The position numbers were made by a program, and so were the translations under genes. The notes under the pieces were generated by a model. It made no database searches. It was given only the letters and a program-made list of their open reading frames with translations, and was not told the origin of the DNA. Of a stretch of 64,000 nt of DNA, positions 20,430 to 36,050 are shown piece after piece (the first letter of the stretch is position 1; each line of letters begins with the position of its first letter). This DNA comes from Endobacter medicaginis (lineage in GTDB: Bacteria > Pseudomonadota > Alphaproteobacteria > Acetobacterales > Acetobacteraceae). The stretch lies in NCBI RefSeq assembly GCF_014192375.1, contig NZ_JACHXV010000004.1, forward strand, positions 186,001 through 250,000. Direction: 5' to 3'.

Positions 20430-21010
20430 GCCGCGCCACCTTTCATCCGCAACCTCGTCTCGGTCGCCACCGCATCGAGGCCGATGTCATGCGGCCCGAC
20501 CGGCACGCTGTCCAGCAGCAGGGCCTCTATGCCGACGCCCACACTGCGCGCGCCCGGCAGGGCGGCCAGCGTGCGGTCGTAGAAACCGCCGCCCTGGCCG
20601 AGCCGGTGCAGGTCCGCATCGAAGCCCAGCAGCGGCACGATCAGCAGTTCGGGCACGATTTCCATCGTCTGCGGGACCAGCGTGCCGAAACGGCCAGCAC
20701 GCATCGCGCAGCCCGGCCACCAGCGCCGGAAGCGCAGCGGCGCGGGGCACTCCGGCGTGTCGGGCAGCGCAATGGCGAGGCCCTGCGCATGCAGGCGTGC
20801 AAGGAGCGCAGAAAGATCCGGCTCGCCGCCGATCGGCAGGAAGGCCGCGATGACCGGCGAATGATCCGGTCGCAGCACGTCGATCGCCTGTTCGAGATGG
20901 CGTTCGAGCGCCATCAGTGCCTCACCATGCGGGGGCCGCCGAACCGCACGCAATCGCGCCCTCAGGGCGCTCTTGTCGAGATCGAAGGGGGAAATGTGCG
21001 GAGCCGCCAT
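20426..21010 (-). CDS. fau: 5-formyltetrahydrofolate cyclo-ligase
   Basis: Converts 5-formyl-THF to 5,10-methenyl-THF using ATP, rescuing the inhibitory folate form. The product is 194 aa, family-normal. It shows the N-terminal KSALRARLRAVRR basic segment, FLPIGGEPD, and the C-terminal signature LLGFDADLHRLGQGGGFYDRTL that binds ATP and Mg. It sits directly after the 6S RNA and zapA, the conserved ssrS-fau (ygfA) linkage known from E. coli and other proteobacteria. Confidence 0.95.
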   Translation of the reverse strand: MAAPHISPFDLDKSALRARLRAVRRPPHGEALMALERHLEQAIDVLRPDHSPVIAAFLPIGGEPDLSALLARLHAQGLAIALPDTPECPAPLRFRRWWPGCAMRAGRFGTLVPQTMEIVPELLIVPLLGFDADLHRLGQGGGFYDRTLAALPGARSVGVGIEALLLDSVPVGPHDIGLDAVATETRLRMKGGAA

Positions 21011-21012
21011 GG

Positions 21013-21160
21013 CCGTCGGACTGTCAGCCTCCCAGAGCCTGCAAGTGCAGGTGGGCGCCGGATAACGTGACCAAGGCCACGTCAGAGCCAGCTCCCGAGG
21101 AAGTGCTTATCGGCCCAGGGGATGAATTGCCGTCGAACCGGGCAGCCCCGCCTGATGAAC
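21013..21160 (-). ncRNA. ssrS: 6S RNA (ssrS), boundaries approximate
   Basis: The gap of about 150 bp between zapA and fau is the conserved site of 6S RNA, the regulator that binds RNA polymerase holoenzyme like an open promoter. The minus strand contains CATCCCCTGGGCCGATAAGC, close to the E. coli 6S segment CCCCTGAGCCGATA at the edge of the central bubble. An apical hairpin with GACGTGGCC/GGTCACGTT follows, then a 3' arm with GCACTTGCAGGCTCTGGGAGGC. No open frame fills the gap. The exact ends are not fixed. Confidence 0.8.
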
Positions 21161-22952: not shown

Positions 22953-24176
22953 TCAAGACAAACCGGCATAATGCGCGCGTGCGGCGTCCACCGCAGCGCC
23001 CGAGACCAGCGCGAAACCATGCCCGCGCAGCACCGCCTCGAGTGCTGCCAGCGTGGTCAGCACCGCGTCGCGCCGCGCATTGTAGCCCATCGTGCCGATG
23101 CGCCAGATGCGGCCGGCAAGCGGGCCGAACGAGGTGCCGATCTCGATGCCGAACTCGTCGAGCATCTCCGAGCGCACCGCCTCGCCCGGCACGCCGGCGG
23201 GAATCTCGATACCGACGACGTTGAACATCTTGTGGCCCTGGTCGCCGTACAGCGTCAGCCCCATCGCCCGCAGTCCGGCCGCCATCGCCTCGCCGGCGGC
23301 GCGGTGGCGCGCGACCCGGGCCTCGATCCCTTCCTCGAGGATCAGCCGCGCGCATTCACGGGCGGCATAAAGCATCGAACTCGCCTCGGTGTGATGGTTG
23401 AGCCGGCGCTCCGACCAGTAATCCATCACCATCGCCAGATCGAAATAGTTCGAGCCGATGCGCGCACCACGCGCCGGCGCGTCAGCTGCGGTCGCGATAC
23501 CGCCCTCGACGTGACGGCGTGAGAAGATGTGCGCGGCTGCGCGGTCGGAGATGGTGATGGGCGCGATGCCCGGCGGCCCGGCGAGGCATTTCTGCAGGCC
23601 TGCGGTGACGATGTCGGCCCCCCAGGCGTCGACCGGCACCCGCATCCCGCCCAGGGTCGCGGTGGCGTCGACATAAAGCAGCGCGCTATGACGGGCGCAG
23701 ATATCGCCCAGGGTCTCGATCGGCTGTGCCATGGTGGTGGAGGTGTCGCCATGCACGGTGGCGACCACACGCGGCTTGACCCGTGCGACCGCCGCCTCGA
23801 TCTCGGCCGCCGGCACCACCTCGCCCCAGGGCGCCTCCACCAGGGTCACCACCGCGCCGCAGCGCTCGGCGATCTCGCGCAGCAGCAGGCCGAAGCGGCC
23901 CGAGCTGAGCACCACCACCGCCTCGCCGGGTGCCAGCAGCGAGACCAGCGACGCCTCGATCGCCGCGCGCGCGGTGCCGTCGATGAGGAAGGTCCAGCGG
24001 TTGTCGGTCTCGAACACGGCGCGATACAGCGCCATGGTCTCGTTCATGTAGGTGGTCATCTGCGGGTCGAACTGGCCCAGCAGCGGCACCGACATCGCGC
24101 GCAGCACACGCGGATGTGCATTCACCGGCCCCGGCCCCATCAGCAGGCGGAACGGGGGGTCGAGTTCGCTGAACAT
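22953..24176 (-). CDS. PLP aminotransferase of the PucG / alanine-glyoxylate type
   Basis: A 407-aa class V aminotransferase. It begins MFSELDPPFRLLMGPGPVNAHPRVL with FDPQMTTYMNE, and has HGDTSTTMAQP, YVDATATLGG and the PLP lysine K196 in TAGLQKCLAGPPG. These features fit (S)-ureidoglycine-glyoxylate aminotransferase (PucG) and the closely related serine/alanine-glyoxylate aminotransferases. An NCS1 permease of the allantoin/uracil/purine type lies 2 kb away, which leans towards purine breakdown, but no allantoinase or urate genes are present. The ATG at 24176 fits the family start; the open frame extends to 24356 without similarity. Confidence 0.8.
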   Translation of the reverse strand: MFSELDPPFRLLMGPGPVNAHPRVLRAMSVPLLGQFDPQMTTYMNETMALYRAVFETDNRWTFLIDGTARAAIEASLVSLLAPGEAVVVLSSGRFGLLLREIAERCGAVVTLVEAPWGEVVPAAEIEAAVARVKPRVVATVHGDTSTTMAQPIETLGDICARHSALLYVDATATLGGMRVPVDAWGADIVTAGLQKCLAGPPGIAPITISDRAAAHIFSRRHVEGGIATAADAPARGARIGSNYFDLAMVMDYWSERRLNHHTEASSMLYAARECARLILEEGIEARVARHRAAGEAMAAGLRAMGLTLYGDQGHKMFNVVGIEIPAGVPGEAVRSEMLDEFGIEIGTSFGPLAGRIWRIGTMGYNARRDAVLTTLAALEAVLRGHGFALVSGAAVDAARAHYAGLS

Positions 24177-24349
24177 CGTCGGGCAGGCTCCAGGGGCAGG
24201 GCGATTTACGACAAATTGCGCTGTCACCGGGCCAGGCGCAATCTTCGACCACATATGCACGCGCCGCATCGCTTGCGCCCATGATTCCCACGACTGCAAC
24301 TGCAACGCGTCGCCGACGCTGACACGTCTGCAGGACAAGGAGACTTGCG

Positions 24350-24745
24350 GTGACATCGCCCGACCCGCCGAACATGCCGCCGGCCGCAGCCATTGTCCTC
24401 GTGGTCGAGGACGAGACCCTGCTGCGCATGCATTCGGTCGATTTCATCGAGGCGGCCGGCTATCGCGTGCTCGAGGCCGCCGATACCGATACGGCGATCG
24501 CGGTCCTCGAGGCCAACCCCGCGATCCGCGTCGTGCTCACCGATGTCGACCTGCCCGGCTCGATGGACGGGCTCAAGCTCGCCGCCGCGATCCGACGCCG
24601 CTGGCCGCCGATCGAGCTGATCGTCACCTCGGGCGCGGTCACGCCACAGCCGGGCGACCTGCCCGAACGCAGCATCTTCGTGCCGAAACCGGTCGATCCA
24701 CGCCGCGTGCTCTCCGCCATCGACGGATTCATCGGTCTGGACTAG
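24350..24745 (+). CDS. Stand-alone response-regulator receiver domain
   Basis: A 131-aa single-domain receiver: the acidic pair E20-D21 in LVVEDETLLR, the phosphoacceptor D65 in LTDVDLPG, the Thr/Ser switch in IVTSGAV, and K113 in FVPKPVDP. There is no output domain. The protein is translated from GTG at 24350 with AAGGAG upstream. Such one-domain proteins act as phosphate shuttles or are paired with HWE/HisKA2-type kinases, but no kinase is in this window. It precedes rph by 45 bp and may be cotranscribed with it. Confidence 0.9.
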   Translation: MTSPDPPNMPPAAAIVLVVEDETLLRMHSVDFIEAAGYRVLEAADTDTAIAVLEANPAIRVVLTDVDLPGSMDGLKLAAAIRRRWPPIELIVTSGAVTPQPGDLPERSIFVPKPVDPRRVLSAIDGFIGLD

Positions 24746-24790
24746 ACCGGGCGCGCGATCCCGCATGACGCGACTGGAGACACGACCAAC

Positions 24791-25531
24791 GTGACCCGAC
24801 CTTCCGGTCGCGCGGCCGACACGCTGCGCGACATCTCGATCACCACCGGTTTCGCCCGCCATGCCGAGGGCTCGGCACTGATCCGGGTCGGCCATACCGA
24901 GGTGCTGTGCACCGCCAGTGTCGAGGGGCGCGTGCCGGGCTTCCTGCGCGGCCAGGGCCAGGGCTGGGTGACGGCGGAATACGGCATGCTGCCGCGCGCC
25001 ACCCACAAGCGTGGCGACCGCGAGGCCGCGCGCGGCAAGCAGGGCGGGCGCACGCTTGAAATCCAGCGCCTGATCGGTCGCAGCCTGCGCGCCGTGGTCG
25101 ATCGCCGGGCGATGGGCGAGATGAGTGTCACCATCGACTGCGACGTGCTCAATGCCGATGGCGGGACGCGCTGCGCCGCCATCACCGGCGGCTGGGTGGC
25201 GCTGCATCTGGCCTTCGCGAAACTGGTGTCGCTGCGTGCGCTGCCGGCCAATCCGCTGACCGGGCAGGTGGCGGCGGTGTCGTGCGGGCTGGTGGCGCGC
25301 GACGACTCCGGGCCGGAAGCGGTGCTCGACCTGGATTATGCGGAGGATTCCGCCGCGATCGCGGATGCCAATTTCGTACTCACCGATGCCGGCGCGATCG
25401 TCGAGATCCAGGCCAGCGCGGAGGGCGCGCCGTTCGCGCCGGACGCGTTCGCGCGACTGCACGAGCTGGCACGAAGCGGCATGGAGGGGCTGTTCGCCGC
25501 CCAGCGCCGGGCGATCGGGGTGGAGGTCTGA
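24791..25531 (+). CDS. rph: Ribonuclease PH
   Basis: A phosphate-dependent 3'-5' exonuclease that trims tRNA 3' ends and helps degrade structured RNA. The product is 246 aa with [19 protein letters not shown] at the N-terminus, [36 protein letters not shown], and the phosphate-binding region [18 protein letters not shown]. The start is GTG at 24791. It is followed two bases later by rdgB, a frequent pairing. Confidence 0.96.
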
Positions 25532-25533
25532 CG

Positions 25534-26154
25534 ATGCCGATCGATCCGAACGCGCCGCGACGGCTGGCGGCAGGAGGCCGTGTGGTGCTGGCCAGCCACA
25601 ATCGCGGCAAGCTCGCCGAGTTCGGTGCCGTGCTCGGCGCGTGGGACATCACCGTGCTGCTCGCCTCCGATCTCGGTCTGCCGGAGCCGGACGAGACCGA
25701 GGACAGCTTCGCCGGCAATGCCCGGCTGAAAGCGCTGGCGGCGGCGAAGGCCTCGATGCAGCCGTCGCTCGCCGACGATTCCGGCTTCGCGGTCGACGCG
25801 CTGGGCGGCGCGCCCGGCATCTTCTCGGCCCGATGGGCGGGTCCGGAGAAGGATTTCGCCGCCGCGATGCGCCGCATCCATCACGAGGCGGCCGCCAATC
25901 CCGACCATTCGGCCGCGTTCGTCTGCGCGCTCTGCCTCGCCTGGCCGGACGGGCATGTCGTGGAGGTGGAGCGCACGCTTCGCGGCGAATGGGTGTGGCC
26001 GCCGCGCGGTTCGGGCGGATTCGGCTACGATCCGATGTTCGCACCGCGTGGCAGCGCGCTCACCTTCGGCGAGATGAGCCGCGAGGCCAAGGCGGCGATC
26101 AGCCATCGCGCGCTGGCGATCGCCGATCTCGCCGCGATGGTCCGGCCGTTGTAG
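25534..26154 (+). CDS. rdgB: XTP/dITP diphosphatase (HAM1 family)
   Basis: Hydrolyses non-canonical purine nucleotides such as XTP and dITP to keep them out of nucleic acids. The product is 206 aa, with the signature VLASHNRGKLAEF, DSFAGNARLKALAAA, SLADDSGFAVDALGGAPGIFSARWAG, and GFGYDPMFAPRG. It is in the rph operon, two bases after its stop. Its 3' end is convergent with the permease gene, 18 bp away. Confidence 0.95.
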   Translation: MPIDPNAPRRLAAGGRVVLASHNRGKLAEFGAVLGAWDITVLLASDLGLPEPDETEDSFAGNARLKALAAAKASMQPSLADDSGFAVDALGGAPGIFSARWAGPEKDFAAAMRRIHHEAAANPDHSAAFVCALCLAWPDGHVVEVERTLRGEWVWPPRGSGGFGYDPMFAPRGSALTFGEMSREAKAAISHRALAIADLAAMVRPL

Positions 26155-26172
26155 GAGGCTGGCCGCACAGGA

Positions 26173-27627
26173 TCAGACCACGCGAAGCGGGCCGGTTGCG
26201 AGGGCGCTCCCGCGCCGGGCCAGCACGGCATAGGTTCCGGCCCCGATGGCGATGCCTATGAACCACGAGAAGCCGGTCAGCGACGCGAGCGCGGGGATCA
26301 CATAGCCGGCGGACGCGATCGCGCCGCCGAGCACGAAAGCGATCAGCCCGGCCGGATTCCAGCCCGACCGGGCGCCATAGATCCCGTCATAGCGATACAG
26401 GTCGGCGACCGAGAGGTGCTGGCGGCGGATGAGGTAGAAATCCACCAGCATGATCCCCGTCACCGGACCGAGCAACCCGCCGAGCGCGCCGAGCACCGCG
26501 AAGATGCCCTGCGCATCACGAAACCACAGCCACGGCGCGAACAGCACGGCGATGGCCAGCACCAGCGTCGCCGCACTGCCGAAACGCAGCCGTCGCGGCA
26601 TCAGGTTCACCAGATCATAGCTCGCCGGCATGATGTTGGCTGCCACGTTGACCGACAGGGTGGCGAGGATGATGGTCGCCCCTCCGAACATCAACAACCA
26701 CTTGCTGTGGAAGGCGAGCAGCAGCTCGACGGGGTCCCAGATCGCATGGCCGAACACGATCACGGTGGCCGAGGTGGTGATGACGCTCATCGCCATGAAC
26801 ACCACCGCGGTGATCGGCAGGCCGATGAGCTGGCCGAGCGCCTGGTCGCGCTCGGAGCGGGCGAAGCGGGAGAGATCGGGGATGTTGACTGCGAAGGTCG
26901 ACCACACGCCGATCATGCCGGTGACACCGACGAAGAAGGTGGTCCACGAGGCCGGATGATGCCCGGGCGGCACGGCGAACAGCGGTCCCAGCCCGTGCGC
27001 GACATGCAGGCCCCAGGCGGTGGCACAGGCGCCGACCGCGATCACCGCCGGCCCGGCGACGAGTTCGAAATTGCGGATACGGTGCACGCCATGGCTCACG
27101 ATCCAGGCATGCAGTGCCCAAAACAGCGCCATCGCCAGCCACAGCCGCAGGCTCATCCCCAGCACCGCACCGCCGATCGCGGCCCAGCCCGGCGACAGCG
27201 CGGCGAGCATGGCGTCGAGCGCCTGCGCACCCGCATACCCCTGCACCGAGACCCAGAAGATGGCACAGAAGCCGCGCAGTACCACCGGTACCTGGCCGCC
27301 GTGCGGGCCGAAGGCACTGCGGATCAGCACGCAGAACGGCAGCCCGTAGCGCGTGCCGGCACGGGCGTTGAACCACATCGCAAGAAACAGGACGGCATAG
27401 CCGACCGCCACCGCGGCGAGCGATTCCCACGCCGTCAGCCCCAGCGCCATCAGCCCCGCCGCGGCCTCATAGACCACGACATTGTGCACCATGCCCATCC
27501 AGACGGTGGCCATGTTGACCCAGGACCAGTCGCGCTGGGCCTGCGGCACCGGCGCGAGATCGGGATTGTAGAGCCCCGCATCGGCCCATGACGGCCGCTC
27601 CGCCCCATCGACTGCCGCACGCTGCAT
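26173..27627 (-). CDS. NCS1-family nucleobase/allantoin/cytosine permease
   Basis: A 484-aa inner-membrane transporter with about 12 hydrophobic segments. The N-terminus LYNPDLAPVPQAQRDWSWVNMATVWMGM is characteristic of NCS1 symporters: the NPDL(A)P motif followed by a Trp-rich entry to helix 1. The mid-region has NIPDLSRFARSERDQALGQ, and GSAATLVLAIAVLFAPW lies further on. Members carry uracil, cytosine, hydantoins, allantoin or thiamine with Na+ or H+. The ligand cannot be fixed here; the nearby PucG-like aminotransferase is compatible with purine or allantoin use. Confidence 0.88.
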   Translation of the reverse strand: MQRAAVDGAERPSWADAGLYNPDLAPVPQAQRDWSWVNMATVWMGMVHNVVVYEAAAGLMALGLTAWESLAAVAVGYAVLFLAMWFNARAGTRYGLPFCVLIRSAFGPHGGQVPVVLRGFCAIFWVSVQGYAGAQALDAMLAALSPGWAAIGGAVLGMSLRLWLAMALFWALHAWIVSHGVHRIRNFELVAGPAVIAVGACATAWGLHVAHGLGPLFAVPPGHHPASWTTFFVGVTGMIGVWSTFAVNIPDLSRFARSERDQALGQLIGLPITAVVFMAMSVITTSATVIVFGHAIWDPVELLLAFHSKWLLMFGGATIILATLSVNVAANIMPASYDLVNLMPRRLRFGSAATLVLAIAVLFAPWLWFRDAQGIFAVLGALGGLLGPVTGIMLVDFYLIRRQHLSVADLYRYDGIYGARSGWNPAGLIAFVLGGAIASAGYVIPALASLTGFSWFIGIAIGAGTYAVLARRGSALATGPLRVV

Positions 27628-27694
27628 CCGCTTTTCCGCTCCGCCTCAGTGACACGGGATCAGCAAGAATCGTGCCGGATTGCCCTGCATGACC

Positions 27695-28399
27695 CTAATC
27701 CGGGCGAGCGCCGGCGATGATCGAGTTCCAGGACGGGAAGAACGATCCCCTGTGCGCCAGCACCCGGCGCCGGGAATCCACGCAGCCCTCGAAGGCCTCG
27801 CGCGCCTGGGCGAACCCGTCGGCCCGGACGATCCAGGGCAGGTCGCGGCCCTGCGGGAAGCTGATGCGGACATAGCCCTTCATCAGGATCAACTGGCTGA
27901 TGAATACGAAGTCGCGCGGCGCGAACAGCGTTCCGATGGTCCCGTCATGCAGGGTGCCGGAGAGCATCTTCTGCGGCAGACCGGGCATGTCGATCGCATA
28001 GGACGTCCTGCCATGCTTCGGTGACTTCCAGGAGGCCTGGCTGAGCAGCAGCAGGATGTCGGAGCTGTTGTCATGCCATGCGAAGGCCAGCTTCGGCATG
28101 CCGGACTCGCGATGCAGCCCGATATAGCAGCTCCCGATCCCGTCCGGGCCGACCCCGTGGCCGAAATCCCAGAAGGCGTTCACCGGCGCGAACGGGATGC
28201 CCGGCTGGCCGGCATGCTCGCCCTGGTTGGGAAAGGTCGGCGTGAGCATCGCCTGCTCGGCAAACGACCCCGGCGCCGGGACCAGCGCGGGCGTGGACTG
28301 TGCGGCGGCGCGAGCGAGAGGGCCCGGCGCCAGCAGGACGCAGGCCAGCAGAGACCTTGCCCGCCGCGATCGCGAGGCCGGGCCGAGGGTGATACGCAT
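27695..28399 (-). CDS. Exported protein of unknown function
   Basis: A 234-aa protein with a basic N-terminus and a hydrophobic signal segment (SLLACVLLAPGPLARAAAQ; cleavage near AAA-Q), so it is probably periplasmic. The mature part has FWDFGHGVGPDGIGSCYIGLHRESG, SYAIDMPGLPQKM, FAPRDFVFISQLILMKG and ends in a basic region. It suggests a compact beta-rich domain, but I recognise no family. The ATG at 28399 begins directly before the signal peptide; the open frame reaches 28444. It follows the LysR gene by 123 bp in the same direction. Confidence 0.65.
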   Translation of the reverse strand: MRITLGPASRSRRARSLLACVLLAPGPLARAAAQSTPALVPAPGSFAEQAMLTPTFPNQGEHAGQPGIPFAPVNAFWDFGHGVGPDGIGSCYIGLHRESGMPKLAFAWHDNSSDILLLLSQASWKSPKHGRTSYAIDMPGLPQKMLSGTLHDGTIGTLFAPRDFVFISQLILMKGYVRISFPQGRDLPWIVRADGFAQAREAFEGCVDSRRRVLAHRGSFFPSWNSIIAGARPD

Positions 28400-28522
28400 G
28401 ACGCCAGTCACATCCCGTTGGTGATGCGCAACATTATACCGCACCGGCAGGATGCTGACGACCCGGGTGGCAGACGGAACGGATCGCGCGTCTGCGATGC
28501 CGCGGCCTTCCCCCGGAGCCCG

Positions 28523-29491
28523 TCACGCAGGAAACGGCGGCTCGGCCGCAAATCGCGCGGCGAGCGCATTGCCGAAGGCACGCGCACCGGAGGTCAGCCC
28601 GGCATTGCGCTGCCATACCAGACCGAGCACCGTCTGGGGCTCCGGCAGCAGCGTCTCCTCCGCAACCAACCGGTCGGTATCGAGGATCGACAACGGTGCC
28701 CAGGCGACGCTGCCGGGCATCTCCAGAAGTGCCACGGATTCGATCTGTGAATTGATCTCGATCCGGTTGGGCGGCATGCGCAGCCCGGCGGTGGCCAGCA
28801 TGCGCTCGAACAACGGCCGCATCGCCAGACCGGCGGTGGGAATGATCCAGCAACGCTGGCTGAGGCGATCCCAGTCCATGGCGTCGTCGCGCGGCAACCG
28901 GCGGTCCCTCGGCGCCACCACCACGCAGCGATCGCGCGCCAGAGGCAGACTGGCCACCCACGGATGGTTCTCGATCTCGAACAGATCGAAAACCACCAGG
29001 TCGAGCCGGTTCATCTGCAGATCGCCCAGCAGGCGCTCGCGCATGCCGTAGTCGAACTGCACCATCAGATAGGGATGGCGGGTCTTGATGTCGCAGATCG
29101 TGCGCGCCACCGCGGCCTGCAGTGCCGGCGCCTGCAGGCCGATGCGTACCGTGCCGTGCACCGACCCGTCGAGCGCGGGCAGTTCCTCGTTGAGCACCCG
29201 CAACTCGGCCTCGATGCGCCGGCCGCTCTCGAGCAGCCGGATGCACACCGCCGAGGGCATCAGCCCGTCCTTGGTCCGGTCGAACAGGCGCATGCCGATC
29301 AGGCTCTCGATCTCGATGCAGCTCTTCGAGACCGCCGCGGCACTCAGGCCCAGCCGCTCGCCGGCAAGACGCATGTTGCGGGTGCCGACCAGGGTCTCGA
29401 CGAGCCGGAAGTGTCGCAGCTTCAGCACGCGGCGCAGATCGACCAGCGTCGGGAGGGGCGGGGCGGGAGTCAGCAGGTTCGACAGGCTCAC
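28523..29491 (-). CDS. LysR-family transcriptional regulator
   Basis: A 322-aa regulator with the LysR winged helix at about residues 22-85 (HFRLVETLVGTRNMRLAGERLGLSAAAVSKS, then the SLIGMRLFDRTKDGLMPS wing) and a periplasmic-binding-like co-inducer domain after about 110. It is divergent from the TonB receptor - MFS - AbgB gene set, with a 116-bp gap between starts. LysR proteins usually control the divergent neighbour, so it is the likely switch of that uptake cluster. The inducer may be the transported substrate or its breakdown product. Confidence 0.92.
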   Translation of the reverse strand: MSLSNLLTPAPPLPTLVDLRRVLKLRHFRLVETLVGTRNMRLAGERLGLSAAAVSKSCIEIESLIGMRLFDRTKDGLMPSAVCIRLLESGRRIEAELRVLNEELPALDGSVHGTVRIGLQAPALQAAVARTICDIKTRHPYLMVQFDYGMRERLLGDLQMNRLDLVVFDLFEIENHPWVASLPLARDRCVVVAPRDRRLPRDDAMDWDRLSQRCWIIPTAGLAMRPLFERMLATAGLRMPPNRIEINSQIESVALLEMPGSVAWAPLSILDTDRLVAEETLLPEPQTVLGLVWQRNAGLTSGARAFGNALAARFAAEPPFPA

Positions 29492-29607
29492 GTCAACTTT
29501 CCGTTGATGACCACAAACTTCATTTCCCTACCACTTCTGAGCACGGATTAGCCATTTTCTTCGCAACGCCAGCAATTTTTCTATGTCGTGGGCCAGGAAA
29601 GACACAG

Positions 29608-31965
29608 ATGCCCGTTTCATGTTCATATGATCCGATCCAAGGCAGCGAGATAGGCCAGTTCGCCGGCCCCGCGACGACCAAATTTCCTCGCCGGTCGCAC
29701 CGGCAGCACCTGCGGGCGGGGTTTGCCGCCGTCGTCCTGGCCGGGACGACGCTGGGAGCGACCCTGGCAGCCGCACAGGCCGCAGATCCGCCGCGCCGGA
29801 AGCATCCGGCCGCGCGCCATGCCCCGGCCGAGACCGCCGAGGAGGTCGACGTGGTCGCCCGCCGACCGGCCTTCCGCTTCTCGGCCGCCCAGCATGCGGC
29901 GGATTCAACCATCCGGCTGACCGGTCAGGATCTGATCCGGCGTGGCGTGGTCAGCAAGACCGACCTGCAGAACCTCGCCCCGAACCTGTCGGTGCAGAGC
30001 GTCAACGGCACCTCGTCGACCAATTTCCAGCTTCGCGGCATCGGCACCTCCGACTACACGCAGAACAGCACGCCCTCGGTGCTGACCTATATCGACGATG
30101 TCGCCTTCCCGGTCAGCACGATGAGCAACGGCATGCTGTTCGACATCGATTCGGTGGACATCCAGCCGGGGCCTGCGGGTTTCACGCATGGCTTCGCCAG
30201 TTCCGGCGGCGAGGTCGCGCTGCATACAGCCGATCCGACCCCGCAATGGCATGGCGGCGTCACAGAGGATATCGCCAGCTACGCCCGCAGCCGCACCACG
30301 GGCTACATCTCCGGCCCGATCAGCCCGACGCTGTCGTTCCGCATCGCCGCCGAGACCATCCATGGCGGCGGCTGGCAGTATGATCCCGCCAATCGCACCC
30401 ATCTCGGCGATTCCGACGAGACCGCGCTGCGCGCCAAGCTGAAATGGACGCCCGACAGCCGCACCACGGTGAAACTGACCGGGCATTTCGTGCGCGACAG
30501 AAGCGGCGTGGTGGTCGGCCAGCCGATGATCAACCTGCTCGGCACCAGGCTACCGCCCAACGAGCCGCAGCAGGCCTACTGGGACCTTTCGCCGCGCTTC
30601 GCCCGGCTGATCGGCCGCAGCCCGGACACCAAGCCGAGCGAGGACAACACCTTCTGGGGCGCGAACATCACCGCGACCCATCGTTTCGATCTCGCGATGC
30701 TGACCTCGATCAGCGATTACGAGAGCGAGCGCGTCGGCGAATACACCGACCAAGACGCCACCACCGCGCGCACCGGCGATACCTACCGCAACATCGTCGC
30801 CGACAGCTTCATCCAGGAACTGCGCCTCGGCGCGGTCGATCCGGATGCGAAGCTGCAATGGGATCTCGGCGCGAGCTACAATCGCGTGCGGATGTACCAG
30901 CAGTTCTTCTTCGACTTCTCCGACTATCCGCTGCGCGGCTATCTGTCCGAGACCTCGTTCGAACAGCATCAGCAGACCTTCGCGCAGTACGCGCATGTCT
31001 CCTACGCGCTGCCCTGGCATCTGAAGATCTTCGGCGGCCTCAACCACGAGGCCGACGACCGTCAGCTCATCGGCCTGCGCACGGTGCACTACAACGTCAA
31101 CGCGCTCGACTTCGCCGACACCGCGACCAACGCCAACCAGTTCAGCGGCGAGGTCGGGCTGCAATGGCAGCCGAGCCGCGGGTTCATGAGCTACGTGAAG
31201 GTCTCGCGGGGTTTCCGTCCCGGCGGCTTCACCGCGAACAACACCGTCGTGCAGGACCAGCTCGCGCCCTACAAGCCCGAATGGCTGCTGGCCTACGAGG
31301 CCGGCTTCAAGAGCGAGCCGATCCCCAACGTGCTGCGGCTCAACGGGGCGGCGTTCTACGACGACTATCACGACCAGCAATATCTGGGCTCGTTCGTGGT
31401 GCCGAGCTACGGCCCGCTCGGGCGCTTCACCAACATCCCCAAATCCGAGATCTGGGGCCTCGAGGGCAGCATCGACCTGCACCCGCTGCCGCACCTGTAT
31501 CTGGTGCAGAACATCGGTTACGAGCGCGGCAAGTATCAGGATTTCTCCGCGGTCAATTCGGCCGCGACCAACCAGTACTATCTCGCCCACCATGTCTGGA
31601 CGCCGATCTACACCAGTTACAACGGCGTCGATTCCGGCATTCCCAAGCTCACGCTCAACGGCACCGCCACGCTGCGCTTCGATCCGCTGCCGGCGCACCA
31701 GATCGAGGGCGGTCTGGACTGGTCGTATCGCGGTGCGCAGGCGCTGGTGCCGGGCGGACAGGGCTATTATCGGCTGCCGGACTACTTCCTGCTGGGCGCG
31801 CATCTGACCTGGCGGGCGACGAAGCAGCACTGGTTCGCGACCGTCTACGCCACCAATCTGCTCGACCGGCAGTACTACGTGACCGGCGGCCAGGCGACGA
31901 CGACCTATTTCTACATCCCCGGCGCGCCACGCATCATCGGCGGCCGCTTCGGCGTCGATTTCTGA
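29608..31965 (+). CDS. TonB-dependent outer-membrane receptor of a LysR/MFS/amidohydrolase cluster
   Basis: A 785-aa receptor. A signal segment lies near residues 38-56 (FAAVVLAGTTLGATLAAAQA, cleaved before ADPPR). VDVVARRPAF follows where a TonB box is expected. The plug contains LQNLAPNLSVQSVNGTSSTNFQLRGIGTSDYTQ and the barrel ends in GRFGVDF. The ATG at 29608 has AGGAAAG upstream. It is followed by an MFS symporter and an M20 amidohydrolase, all in one direction behind a divergent LysR gene. That implies outer-membrane uptake, inner-membrane transport and intracellular hydrolysis of one substrate. Confidence 0.9.
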   Translation: MPVSCSYDPIQGSEIGQFAGPATTKFPRRSHRQHLRAGFAAVVLAGTTLGATLAAAQAADPPRRKHPAARHAPAETAEEVDVVARRPAFRFSAAQHAADSTIRLTGQDLIRRGVVSKTDLQNLAPNLSVQSVNGTSSTNFQLRGIGTSDYTQNSTPSVLTYIDDVAFPVSTMSNGMLFDIDSVDIQPGPAGFTHGFASSGGEVALHTADPTPQWHGGVTEDIASYARSRTTGYISGPISPTLSFRIAAETIHGGGWQYDPANRTHLGDSDETALRAKLKWTPDSRTTVKLTGHFVRDRSGVVVGQPMINLLGTRLPPNEPQQAYWDLSPRFARLIGRSPDTKPSEDNTFWGANITATHRFDLAMLTSISDYESERVGEYTDQDATTARTGDTYRNIVADSFIQELRLGAVDPDAKLQWDLGASYNRVRMYQQFFFDFSDYPLRGYLSETSFEQHQQTFAQYAHVSYALPWHLKIFGGLNHEADDRQLIGLRTVHYNVNALDFADTATNANQFSGEVGLQWQPSRGFMSYVKVSRGFRPGGFTANNTVVQDQLAPYKPEWLLAYEAGFKSEPIPNVLRLNGAAFYDDYHDQQYLGSFVVPSYGPLGRFTNIPKSEIWGLEGSIDLHPLPHLYLVQNIGYERGKYQDFSAVNSAATNQYYLAHHVWTPIYTSYNGVDSGIPKLTLNGTATLRFDPLPAHQIEGGLDWSYRGAQALVPGGQGYYRLPDYFLLGAHLTWRATKQHWFATVYATNLLDRQYYVTGGQATTTYFYIPGAPRIIGGRFGVDF

Positions 31966-32030
31966 TGCGCGCCGGCGCGTCTGCCCTCACCATCGGGGCG
32001 GTGCCCCCCACAGCCAGCGGAGCCTTGCCC

Positions 32031-33302
32031 ATGGCCGTCGCCAGCCCGTCACCGCGCAAGCGGATGCTGATCGGCATCTGTGCAGGCAATTTCCTCGAAT
32101 TCTACAATTTCGGCGTCTACGCCTTCTTCGCGCCGATGCTCGCGGCGGCCTATTTCCCCAAGGGCGACCATCTCGTCGCCCTCACCCTCGCACTGCTGAC
32201 CTTCGCGATCGGCTTCCTCGCCCGGCCGGTGGGTGCGGCGGTGGTCGCCGCCTATGCCGCGCGCGCCGGACGACGCGCCGCCCTGATGCTCACCTTCTCG
32301 CTGATGGGCCTGGGCTCGGCGCTGATCGCGCTGACCCCTGGCTACAACCGCATCGGCATCGCCGCCCCGGTGATCGTGCTGCTCGGCCGCCTGATCCAGG
32401 GCTTCTCCGATGGTGGCGAGGTCGGACCGGCGACGACGCTGCTGTTCGATCTTGAGGCCGCGCATGGGCGCGGCGGCATCGTCTCGCTGCAATACATCAC
32501 CCAGCTCTGCGCGATGCTGGTCTCGGTGATGGTCGGCGCCGTGCTGGCGGCAGTGCTGCCGCACGACGCGCTCTATGGCTGGGGCTGGCGAGTGCCGTTC
32601 CTGCTCGGTCTGATGGTGGTGCCGGTGGGGCTGTTCATCCGCGGCAGCGAAACCATGGACCATGCACCGCCGCCGCAGCCGGCCCCCGTCACCACCACCG
32701 CCCCCGTCGCCGCCATCGCGCTCGTGCTGACAGTGATCGCCTGCGGCACCATCGGCACCTACATGCGCGCCTATGGCGTCAGCTACGCCGTCTCCGTGCT
32801 GCATCTGTCGCCCGGCATCGGCATGCTGGCAATGTCGGCCGGGCTTGCGACCGGCATCCTCGCCACCATCGCAGGCATCCCGCTCGCCGCCAGGATCGGT
32901 ACCATCCCGCTGGTGCTGGCGAGCACGCTCGCCGCCATGGTGCTGACCTGGCCGCTGTATCACCACGCCATCACCACGCCGGGCCTGTCATCGCAACTGC
33001 TGCTCAACATCGCACTGTTCGCCATCACCAACCTGCCGGCGGGGGTGCTGTGGAAGACGATGCTGGGCGCGCTGCCCGAGCGCAACCGCTCGCTCGCCTT
33101 CGGCCTGATCTATGCGCTGGCGGTGTCGATCTTCGGCGGCTTCACCCAGCCCGTGGTGACCTGGCTGATCACTGTCACCGGCAGCGCGATGGTGCCGGCC
33201 TGGGTGTCGATCGCGCTGGCGCCGGTCGGCACTGCGGCCCTGCTGCTTCTGCTTCGCAAACAGCGCGGGACACAGACCCGCGCCGCCCCCGCCCTCGCCT
33301 GA
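32031..33302 (+). CDS. MFS transporter, metabolite:H+ symporter (MHS) type
   Basis: A 423-aa inner-membrane symporter with 12 hydrophobic helices. The N-terminal segment GICAGNFLEFYNFGVYAFFAPMLA and the loop FLARPVGAAVVAAYAARAGRRAALMLTFSLMGLGSALIAL match the MHS group of the major facilitator superfamily (citrate, proline/betaine, shikimate and similar carriers); GRLIQGFSDGGEVGPATTLL is also typical. ATG 32031 has GGAG about eight bases upstream, and an ATG at 31965 overlapping the receptor stop is an alternative. It probably moves the substrate received by the TonB receptor across the inner membrane. Confidence 0.86.
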   Translation: MAVASPSPRKRMLIGICAGNFLEFYNFGVYAFFAPMLAAAYFPKGDHLVALTLALLTFAIGFLARPVGAAVVAAYAARAGRRAALMLTFSLMGLGSALIALTPGYNRIGIAAPVIVLLGRLIQGFSDGGEVGPATTLLFDLEAAHGRGGIVSLQYITQLCAMLVSVMVGAVLAAVLPHDALYGWGWRVPFLLGLMVVPVGLFIRGSETMDHAPPPQPAPVTTTAPVAAIALVLTVIACGTIGTYMRAYGVSYAVSVLHLSPGIGMLAMSAGLATGILATIAGIPLAARIGTIPLVLASTLAAMVLTWPLYHHAITTPGLSSQLLLNIALFAITNLPAGVLWKTMLGALPERNRSLAFGLIYALAVSIFGGFTQPVVTWLITVTGSAMVPAWVSIALAPVGTAALLLLLRKQRGTQTRAAPALA

Positions 33303-33327
33303 CGATCTCAAGACAAGGACCGATGTC

Positions 33328-34749
33328 ATGGACAACGCCGAACGGATCTGGACGCATGTGGATGCGCTGCGCGACGATTTCGTCGCCCTCGCCGACGCCG
33401 TGTGGGCCACGCCCGAGCTCAATTTCCACGAGGAGCGCTCCTGCGCCGAGCATCGCCACATGCTCGAGGACAAGGGCTTCACCGTCACCCCCCACGCCGG
33501 CGGCCTGCCGACCGCACTGATCGGGGAGGCCGGCGAAGGCGGCCCGGTGATCGCCTTCCTCGGCGAGTACGACGCCCTGCCCGCGCTCAGCCAGGAAGCC
33601 AACATCGCCGAGGAGCGCCCGATCGAGGCGGGCGGCAACGGCCATGGCTGCGGCCACAACCTGCTTGGCTCGGCCGCCCTGCTCGCCGCCACCGCACTGA
33701 AGGACTACCTCGCCGCCAACAACATCCCCGGCCGTGTGCGCTATTACGGCTGCCCGGCCGAAGAGGGCGGCGCGGGCAAGGTGTTCATGGTGCGCGCCGG
33801 CCTGTTCGACGATGTCGACGTCGCCATCACCTGGCATCCGATGTCGATCGCCGCCGTGTTCCCGGCCCGCTCGCTCGCCAACACCGCGATCGACTTCACC
33901 TTCTCCGGCCGCTCCGCACATGCCGCCGCCGCCCCGCATCTCGGCCGCTCGGCGCAGGATGCGGCGGAGCTGATGAATGTCGGCGTCAACTACATGCGCG
34001 AACACATGCCGAGCTCGGCGCGCATCCACTCCGCCTATCAGGACACCGGCGGCAAGGCGCCGAACGTGATCCCCAACCATTGCGTGATCCGCTTCATCAT
34101 CCGCGCCGAGACCTCCTCGGAGGTGAAGCCGCTGGTCGAGCGGGTGCGCAAGATCGCCGACGGCGCGGCGCTGATGACCGAGACCACGGTGAAGACGCGG
34201 GTGATCAGCGCGATGGCCGACCTGCTCGGCAACGCGGCCCTGGAGGAGACCATGCAGGCCAATCTGGACCGGCTCGGCCCGCCGCCCTTCGACGCCGAGG
34301 ACCGCGCCTTCGCCGGTGCGATCCAGAAGACCCTCTCGCCGCAGGATCTCGAGACCATGCGCCGGATGCTGCGCCTGCCGCCCGGCGTGACCAAGGAGCT
34401 GTGCGACTTCATCGTCCCGCTCGGCGCCTGGCCGCGCGACGGCATGGCCGGCTCGACCGATGTCGGCGATGTGAGCTGGGCGGTGCCCACGGTGCAGGCG
34501 CTGGGCGCCACCTGCGCGCTCGGCACCGCGCTGCATTCATGGCAGATGGTGGCGCAAGGCAAGTCCGGCATCGCCCACAAGGGCATGGTGCATGTCGCCA
34601 AGGCGATGGCCGGCACCGCGGTGGACCTGTTCGCCGACCCCGCCCTGCTGGCGCGGGCCAAGCAGGAGCATGCCGACCGGCTGAAGGCGACGCCCTATGT
34701 CGCGCTGCTGCCCGAGGATGCGGAGCCGGCCTTCGAGATGTCGCTCTGA
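33328..34749 (+). CDS. M20 amidohydrolase, AbgB (p-aminobenzoyl-glutamate hydrolase)-like
   Basis: A 473-aa zinc metallopeptidase-type hydrolase. The metal-site motif GNGHGCGHN has H106 and H110, the catalytic-type pair E145-E146 lies in CPAEEGGAGK, and the dimerisation domain includes SGRSAHAAAAPHLGRSAQDAAELMN. The C-terminal part has GSTDVGDVSWAVPTVQ. This arrangement and the length fit AbgB, which cleaves folate breakdown products such as p-aminobenzoyl-glutamate, rather than shorter M20 acyl-amino-acid hydrolases. The true substrate is inferred. It is the last gene of the receptor-MFS unit and its 3' end overlaps the convergent transferase gene by 55 bp. Confidence 0.88.
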   Translation: MDNAERIWTHVDALRDDFVALADAVWATPELNFHEERSCAEHRHMLEDKGFTVTPHAGGLPTALIGEAGEGGPVIAFLGEYDALPALSQEANIAEERPIEAGGNGHGCGHNLLGSAALLAATALKDYLAANNIPGRVRYYGCPAEEGGAGKVFMVRAGLFDDVDVAITWHPMSIAAVFPARSLANTAIDFTFSGRSAHAAAAPHLGRSAQDAAELMNVGVNYMREHMPSSARIHSAYQDTGGKAPNVIPNHCVIRFIIRAETSSEVKPLVERVRKIADGAALMTETTVKTRVISAMADLLGNAALEETMQANLDRLGPPPFDAEDRAFAGAIQKTLSPQDLETMRRMLRLPPGVTKELCDFIVPLGAWPRDGMAGSTDVGDVSWAVPTVQALGATCALGTALHSWQMVAQGKSGIAHKGMVHVAKAMAGTAVDLFADPALLARAKQEHADRLKATPYVALLPEDAEPAFEMSL

Positions 34750-36050
34750 GCGGGCAGAGCGAGATCGGCGGCCGCCTCGCCGAACAGCGCGCCGGTCGCG
34801 CGCCGGGCGAGATGCCGCTCGGCCGGTGAGGCCAGCCGGAACTGCTGAGCCAGACGACGCGCCATCGCATTCGATCGCCGGGCGGGCTCGTCGCGCAGCA
34901 GGTCGAGCAGGCGGGCGACATAGGCCCGTGGGTCATGCGTCTGCACGACATGGCGACGACCGCGCTCGCCCATCCGCCGATAATGGTGCGGGCGGCAGCA
35001 CAGATCGATCAGCAGATGCCCCACATCATCGACCTCGCTGTCGGGGTCGATCGCGGCCACGCAGTCGGGCGGCAGCTCCGCATACCAGCCATGGTCGCTG
35101 ACCGCGGACGCGGCTCCGTTGGCCCAGATGCGCAACTGGCTGCCCGACGCCTCGCCCACCGTCGGGTTGCGCAGGTTGAGCACCAGGTCGGCATCCGCGA
35201 TCGCCGCATTCAGCTCGGCGAAGCTGACGAAGCCATGCAGCGTGACGCAGGCCCCGAGCGACAGTTCCTCGACCAGCGCCACCAGCGCCTCGGGATCGTG
35301 GTACAGCCCGTAGATGTCGAGGCTGAGCGAGCCACGCATCGGACTTTCGGCCAGGATGCGCAGGATCTGCTCGACGCGACGGTTCTTCGCAAGGTAGCCG
35401 AAGACCACCAGCCGGTGCGGCGGCCGCGGCGCGCGGCGAGGGGCAAGCTCCGGCCAGACCGTATCGGCATAGGGCAGCGGCAGGGCGAAAACCTCGATGC
35501 CGGTCTGTTCACGCAGGATATCCGCCTCCGCCTCGTTGTGCATCAGGATCGAGGTCGCGCGTGCGCAGGCGGCCAGCGCGCAGGAATAACGCCGCAGCAC
35601 CGCATCCATCCCGCCATGCGCGAGTGCGTGCTTCGCCTCGTTGAGTGCTCCAGGTCCGTGGCAGCGCAGCAGGATCTCGTAATAGGTCGCATGCCGCCCG
35701 GCATGGTACATCTCCAGCGCGAATTCATGCAGGTTCGCATCATGCAGCACCACCATGCCGGGCACCCTGCGCGCGATGTCGAAGATGTCCTCGTGCATCT
35801 CGCGATTGTTGCCGATATGGAAGATATTGGCGTCGGCCTCGTTGAGATCCCAGAACGCCAGCGCATCGGCGCGGAACGGGCTGACGTGGATGCCGGGGTG
35901 CTCGATCGGTTCCCAGTATTCCTGCGGCGTCCAGACATGGACGTCCGCGCTCTCGGCCATGATCTTCAGGATCGCCAGATTGACATTGGCGATATCGGTC
36001 TGCGCGGGCGGCAGCGGCGTGAAGACGTTGATCCTCAGCCGAGCAGGCAT
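34695..36050 (-). CDS. Glycosyltransferase (GT-B, family 4-like)
   Basis: A 451-aa transferase in a four-gene minus-strand operon. The N-terminal domain includes INVFTPLPPAQTDIANVNLA and NIFHIGNNREMHEDIF. The C-terminal domain contains RLVVFGYLAKNRRVEQILRIL, LDIYGLYHDPEALVAL and DADLVLNLRNPTVGEASGSQLRIWANG, the expected nucleotide-sugar region with its EASGS loop. The start at 36050 lies 16 bp inside the preceding gene. The last 55 bp run antiparallel into the end of the abgB-like gene. The sugar and acceptor are unknown. Confidence 0.78.
   Translation of the reverse strand: MPARLRINVFTPLPPAQTDIANVNLAILKIMAESADVHVWTPQEYWEPIEHPGIHVSPFRADALAFWDLNEADANIFHIGNNREMHEDIFDIARRVPGMVVLHDANLHEFALEMYHAGRHATYYEILLRCHGPGALNEAKHALAHGGMDAVLRRYSCALAACARATSILMHNEAEADILREQTGIEVFALPLPYADTVWPELAPRRAPRPPHRLVVFGYLAKNRRVEQILRILAESPMRGSLSLDIYGLYHDPEALVALVEELSLGACVTLHGFVSFAELNAAIADADLVLNLRNPTVGEASGSQLRIWANGAASAVSDHGWYAELPPDCVAAIDPDSEVDDVGHLLIDLCCRPHHYRRMGERGRRHVVQTHDPRAYVARLLDLLRDEPARRSNAMARRLAQQFRLASPAERHLARRATGALFGEAAADLALPAQSDISKAGSASSGSSAT

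Follow-up and report, generated by a model that had tools for sequence, protein, structure and literature searches.

The stretch analysed here, called the window, comprises 64,000 nucleotides of the 3,626,145-base genome of Endobacter medicaginis (assembly GCF_014192375.1, contig NZ_JACHXV010000004.1, positions 186,001 to 250,000) and contains a group of four genes encoding a LysR-type regulator, a TonB-dependent receptor, a major facilitator superfamily (MFS) carrier and an AbgB-family hydrolase of peptidase family M20. An earlier interpretation made from the DNA letters (the sequence-only reading) had proposed these genes as an uptake-and-cleavage unit, and all four open reading frames are intact at the positions it gave. 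The features of the unit are:

28523-29491, minus strand: LysR-type regulator, 322 amino acids (aa), GTG start, divergent from the other three genes (Pfam HTH_1 and LysR_substrate)
29492-29607, no strand: divergent lysR/receptor regulatory region, 116 bp (alignment of eight intergenic regions)
29493-29507, no strand: palindrome TCAACTTTCCGTTGA, one base from the predicted start of lysR, kept in the corresponding gaps of relatives and a probable operator for LysR
29608-31965, plus strand: TonB-dependent receptor, 785 aa (Pfam Plug PF07715 and barrel PF00593 above cut-off; predicted barrel fold)
31965-33302, plus strand: predicted MFS (MHS-like) symporter, 445 aa (Sugar_tr/MFS_1; TIGR00883 match; hydropathy scan)
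33328-34749, plus strand: AbgB-family M20D amide hydrolase, 473 aa (Peptidase_M20 and M20_dimer, TIGR01891, predicted fold)

The start codon of the MFS gene overlaps the stop codon of the receptor gene (TGATG) and the M20 gene begins 25 bp past the MFS stop which, combined with a lysR gene diverging across 116 bp, suggests that the three plus-strand genes form one transcript with their regulator adjoining. Consistent with a functional grouping, the four-gene order for which the sequence-only reading had advised a search in related genomes recurs in nine other records, divergent regulator included, indicating that the arrangement is more than chance. We examined 44 receptor sites, which were hand-picked from receptor, MFS and M20 matches and are therefore not a random sample. 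This M20 gene lies within 3 kb of the receptor at 15 of them, and ten, the window included, carry the full order LysR<-/->receptor-MFS-(M20b)-M20, in which M20b denotes a second M20 gene. The nine other full units are L021 of Acetobacter nitrogenifigens, L142, L143, L149, L150, L152, L154, L197 and L198 (L numbers designate the loci compared), with genes interrupted in L197 and L198, and LysR homologues of 35–45% identity occupy the same divergent position in all nine. M20b is found on both sides of the main M20 gene in L021, L142 and L143; in L143 the run M20b-M20-M20b follows the MFS gene together with an amidase relative (32%). The layout of the L143 locus matches that of L047 of Ameyamaea chiangmaiensis. 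Rearranged units with an M20 gene occur in L144, L151 and L153, and in L164 and L166 the M20 gene is divergent beside a receptor of 42% identity. The M20-linked receptors also cluster in the receptor tree: the 11 such rows require five changes compared with a shuffled mean of 9.8, a value as low being reached in 1 of 500 shuffles, and ten of the 11 fall in one 14-row group (Shimodaira–Hasegawa-like approximate likelihood ratio support 81). This tree was built with a quick method and has some long branches, so that its details are soft, and L165 was labelled 'rest' in that run.

Further evidence for a regulated unit is the palindrome TCAAC-N5/6-GTTGA, which all ten full units carry between the regulator and receptor genes, as an exact copy in seven and with one mismatch in three. 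Two rearranged M20 units also carry an exact palindrome at a lysR gene, namely L153 in the gap between lysR and M20, and L144 where a weaker LysR homologue (28%) begins. An exact palindrome lies no more than 6 kb from the receptor at nine of the 15 sites with this M20 gene within 3 kb, compared with none of the 29 sites without it. Exact copies occurred at 17 loci in 2,696,056 bases of locus stretches (overlaps included, E. coli left out), of which 14 are at these units and three are background (L058, L060, L192). The alignment of eight gaps shows a second conserved block downstream of the palindrome, a CAAC-like motif followed by ATTTC. Judged from sequence, the palindrome is probably the operator of the adjoining LysR protein.

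The hydrolase shares 45% identity with E. coli AbgB over 468 aa, compared with 29% with AbgA over 241 aa, and scores 243.8 bits against the amidohydrolase model TIGR01891, above the cut-off of 153.75. All 14 positions checked, putative metal ligands among them, are invariant in 37 of 37 aligned rows, which together with the AbgB match upholds the AbgB features originally claimed for this protein. E80, D82, C108, H110, E145, E146, H170 and H403 are identical in all of these rows, E. coli AbgB included, and we take them from the family pattern to be the putative metal-site and catalytic residues. The predicted structure (mean predicted local distance difference test score, pLDDT, 88.2; based on 36 sequences from the window and the loci) is nearest to the solved folds of HmrA (Z 42.5, root-mean-square deviation (rmsd) 2.2, 383 residues aligned) and PM20D2 (Z 40.6, rmsd 2.2, 379 aligned), followed after a gap by an indole-3-acetic acid-amino-acid hydrolase (Z 30.5), an N-acyl-glutamine aminoacylase (30.2) and entry 3io1 (29.6), a Klebsiella AbgA (740.7 bits against the E. 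coli protein). HmrA and PM20D2 are also the closest solved M20 proteins by sequence, with 29–31% identity on the aligned parts. PM20D2 is named beta-alanyl-lysine dipeptidase in PDB titles, and HmrA is termed a Met-X carboxydipeptidase in the title of Jamdar 2015, as cited in PMC11511702; unlike the window enzyme, HmrA is from a Gram-positive bacterium and PM20D2 from human, and so they have no outer-membrane receptor. On these matches we place the window enzyme in the AbgB/PM20D2/HmrA clade of M20D amidohydrolases, so that 'AbgB-like' is right as a family, though one that includes dipeptidases. A simple hydropathy scan found no hydrophobic segment in either the M20 or the LysR protein, and in view of the missing hydrophobic leader the enzyme is taken to be cytosolic. 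Its best named matches are mostly from Acetobacteraceae and their kin.

Both predicted transport components are of recognisable type. The receptor has one hydrophobic segment, signal-like, at about residues 37–55, followed at residues 78–86 by EEVDVVARR, which we take to be TonB-box-like. It was found in 66 of 397 genomes of the family (E <= 1e-60), and at E <= 1e-100 across 385 genomes of the class, a draw with few Acetobacteraceae, only in its own genome. As far as sampled, the receptor family thus appears by sequence to be centred on Acetobacteraceae; distant relatives (31–32%) exist on Burkholderia and Sphingomonas plasmids, so this restriction applies to close relatives only. The MFS protein, with 11 hydrophobic segments in the same scan, was found in 68 of the 397 family genomes (E <= 1e-60) and matches the metabolite/H+ symporter model TIGR00883 over nearly its full length (7.5e-72). 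The MHS-type carrier of the sequence-only reading therefore stands as a relative of that family rather than as a curated member, the score of 242.6 bits lying below the cut-off of 443.45. Neither the MFS nor the LysR protein had a solved homologue by sequence at the limits used.

Combined, gene content, predicted folds and conserved order make it reasonably probable that, under LysR control, the unit imports a dipeptide or an N-acyl amino acid by TonB-driven uptake and hydrolyses it in the cytosol, a judgement that applies to this class of function. The best reading is thus the 'another N-acyl amino acid' that had been offered beside folate fragments, widened to dipeptides. The receptor would carry a small compound containing an amide-linked amino acid, either a dipeptide or an N-acyl or aroyl amino acid, across the outer membrane, and the MFS protein would act as a symporter to move it across the inner one. 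In the cytosol, the M20D enzyme, a putative two-metal amidase, would hydrolyse the amide to an amino acid and either a carboxylic acid or a second amino acid. LysR would bind the palindrome in the divergent promoter and turn the unit on, its inducer probably being the intracellular substrate or product, and it probably also controls its own gene.

Several observations weigh against this assignment. The enzyme subfamily is wider than the unit, being found in 209 of the 397 family genomes (E <= 1e-100) compared with 66 for the receptor, and among 80 named loci picked by M20 alone a receptor is nearby in just three (L021, L047 and L078, the last from Gluconacetobacter tumulisoli), so that the enzyme is not specific to the receptor uptake route. 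On the enzyme tree, where a long branch limits the resolution, the window M20 protein does not group with the M20 proteins linked to receptors elsewhere. Of the ten full units, five (L149, L150, L154, L197, L198) come from one genus. The receptor family also has partners unrelated to amides, in the form of DctA with a malate-type dehydrogenase (L162, L165, L167, L168) and ProP with serine dehydratase (L178), and many receptor homologues have no partner recognised by the probes used, in a survey that annotated part of the neighbours. The best PDB matches of the receptor are siderophore receptors. With regard to the palindrome, the spacer is five bases in the window and six in most relatives, the M20-linked loci L151, L164 and L166 lack it, and L163 has a LysR homologue (41%) without it. 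Nor is the pattern enriched genome-wide: its single exact copy in the genome is that of the window, about 1.5 copies are expected by chance from base composition, and the reversed control pattern also gives one match, so that a lone genomic copy means little. The weight of the palindrome lies instead in its position in the 116-bp gap, where the chance of one site landing is about 3 in 100,000, and in the fact that relatives have it in the same gap.

Three alternative explanations were considered. That four unrelated genes merely lie side by side is scarcely credible: the NCS1 permease, hypothetical protein and aminotransferase genes upstream are indeed not conserved with the unit in the loci fetched, but the order and orientation of the four genes are the same in nine other records, two of the genes overlap at stop and start, and the divergent gap has a common palindrome. 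A receptor importing a siderophore, or a cofactor such as pyrroloquinoline quinone, with the MFS and M20 proteins processing it and amide cleavage releasing the cargo, is improbable without being far-fetched, as the predicted barrel (pLDDT 79.7) is nearest to FyuA (Z 36.3, rmsd 2.5, 614 aligned), FoxA (Z 33.8) and PqqU (Z 32.9). Against this, the siderophore-receptor model TIGR01783 is matched far under its cut-off (106.9 compared with 223.5 bits), and the partners annotated among the receptor's neighbours, in a survey that covered part of the neighbours and did not include a search for Fur boxes, are organic-acid, amino-acid and amide enzymes and carriers rather than iron genes.

The sequence-only reading had favoured salvage of folate fragments, in which p-aminobenzoyl-glutamate (PABA-glutamate) would be imported via the TonB receptor and split by the AbgB-like enzyme into PABA and glutamate. 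The identity to AbgB, the regulator gene adjoining the operon of the enzyme as in the abg locus, and the need for other carriers that would follow from a lack of AbgT all speak for this route, which we nevertheless regard as very unlikely. According to PMC5082436, the E. coli enzyme that hydrolyses PABA-glutamate is a heterotetramer of AbgA and AbgB, and no second M20 gene was found in the window unit that could supply the AbgA partner. The best own-genome M20 paralogue among those compared is encoded on another contig and shares 26% identity with AbgA over 329 aa, and the M20b proteins of relatives, at 27–31% to AbgA, are not clearly AbgA. AbgT (PF03806) gave no match in the genome of E. medicaginis, while four of 14 control genomes were positive, E. 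coli included. The folate route thus fails two defining Abg features. In the same paper (PMC5082436) the E. coli enzyme is reported to have failed on a range of dipeptides, whereas the nearest solved folds here are of dipeptidase or aminoacylase type; the LysR protein is just 22% identical to AbgR over 198 aa, and close M20 relatives occur in mixed contexts within the family. Among ten annotated representatives of M20 relatives without a receptor, the neighbours include TctC, ATP-binding cassette permeases, an M28 peptidase, M20b, a glycosylase and a helicase, among others. As a clue to substrate, this mixture gave no single answer across the ten.

Receptor homologues (38–60% identity) elsewhere adjoin other enzymes, often with an MFS gene, which bears on the observation that was to refute the sequence-only reading, namely homologues of receptor and carrier beside unrelated hydrolases. 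This was found in part: receptor homologues of 51–60% identity stand beside gamma-glutamyltransferase, amidase or amidohydrolase genes, and in one case the carrier is related as well. Gamma-glutamyltransferase and an MFS gene lie beside a receptor homologue in L146, L147, L148 and L175, with the MFS protein of L175 being 45% identical to that of the window. Two further family members are encoded in the same genome, one with an MFS and an amidase gene some 22 kb ahead of the window (L204, 8956-14039), the other with an Amidohydro_3 protein, a GTPase (PRK11537 model, below cut-off), an MFS and a class III aminotransferase (L141, 6323-13917). In L191 (9126-17211), a receptor 38–40% identical to that of the window is grouped with Amidohydro_3, a CobW-type GTPase, an M81/MlrC-like metallopeptidase and an MFS protein (50% to that of the window), a run which is possibly an uptake unit for a peptide. 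L164 and L166 have a hydantoinase/carbamoylase-type hydrolase, a PGA_cap relative and an MFS gene beside the receptor. Amide-bond enzymes (gamma-glutamyltransferase, amidase, Amidohydro_3, M81 and hydantoinase-type) are therefore frequent among the identified partners, though not the sole kind, and the four DctA-linked receptors form one branch of the receptor tree with a support of 100. L193 (2337-11140) combines a different TonB receptor, a flavin oxidase-like protein and a multicopper oxidase with a following MFS and AbgB-like M20 gene, again tying MFS, M20 and a TonB receptor together. L192 (2368-11428) has the same layout by gene sizes, receptor and oxidases being annotated in L193 only, and in both loci the MFS proteins are 50–53% and the M20 proteins 60–62% identical to those of the window.

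We tentatively raise the broader possibility that the receptor family, bound to the Acetobacteraceae lineage, is a general port for amide-linked amino-acid compounds, in which each copy would have its own carrier and an exchangeable cytosolic hydrolase (M20, gamma-glutamyltransferase, amidase, amidohydrolase or M81), with the neighbouring hydrolase revealing the cargo. In the case of the window unit, the TonB-dependent route would serve dipeptides or N-acyl amino acids under a dedicated LysR switch. As a separate observation, a PGA_cap-domain protein is found beside the receptor family, MFS and amide hydrolases in L163, L164 and L166; the best NCBIfam model for that of L163 is a lasso peptide C-terminal Trp epimerase, below cut-off.

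Compared with known systems, the unit resembles the E. coli abg locus (AbgR, AbgA, AbgB, AbgT) in combining a LysR-type regulator with an inner-membrane carrier and an M20 hydrolase of the AbgB family, and differs from it in having an MFS protein in place of AbgT, a TonB receptor and no AbgA. A regulator-receptor-symporter-hydrolase unit with an AbgB-family enzyme and without AbgT, as originally described, is present and conserved across genera. The DdvT/DdvK system of Sphingobium SYK-6 likewise serves one organic compound with a TonB receptor, an MFS carrier, catabolic enzymes and a regulator of its own, as described in PMC6874591. It differs in acting in lignin biphenyl catabolism and in its MarR-type regulator, and its cluster as described there includes no M20 enzyme; the comparison is by description and not by receptor sequences. 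With this precedent, catabolic uptake by receptor and MFS is already a known kind, which narrows the earlier remark that no description of such a route was known. A search of the literature at title and abstract level, with thin coverage of subscription journals, found no report that links a TonB receptor to an M20 or AbgB-like amide hydrolase. New here are the putative class of amide cargo, the enzyme of the AbgB family and the receptor family of Acetobacteraceae, together with the recurring LysR<-/->receptor-MFS-(M20b)-M20 order and its palindrome in all ten gaps.

To our knowledge, most TonB receptors have no known cargo. Because receptor subfamily, carrier, hydrolase and palindrome travel together here, the hydrolase offers a guess at the cargo, which is open to test in the culturable Acetobacter nitrogenifigens and Ameyamaea chiangmaiensis. 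A dipeptide or acyl-amino acid as cargo would give TonB transport a further cargo class and would explain one use of the common, unexplained AbgB-like enzymes of Acetobacteraceae.

Promoter and terminator scans of positions 27600-35000 gave counts similar to those of shuffles (1 compared with 0.7, and 3 compared with 2.4). Rfam models at the gathering threshold found only one 6S RNA (20997-21151, minus strand, RF00013, 67.2 bits) and one tRNA in the window, and no riboswitch near the unit. The upstream genes considered as members, an NCS1 permease (26173-27627), a hypothetical protein (27695-28444) and an aminotransferase (22953-24356), were excluded because no homologue of them adjoins the unit in the relatives' loci fetched. 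The NCS1 carrier is allantoin-permease-like, below cut-off, and the aminotransferase is of class V, its nearest models being pyridoxamine-pyruvate or aspartate-glyoxylate aminotransferase, also below cut-off. Judged by eye, these two genes flank RNase PH- and RdgB-like genes within positions 22953-27627 of the window.

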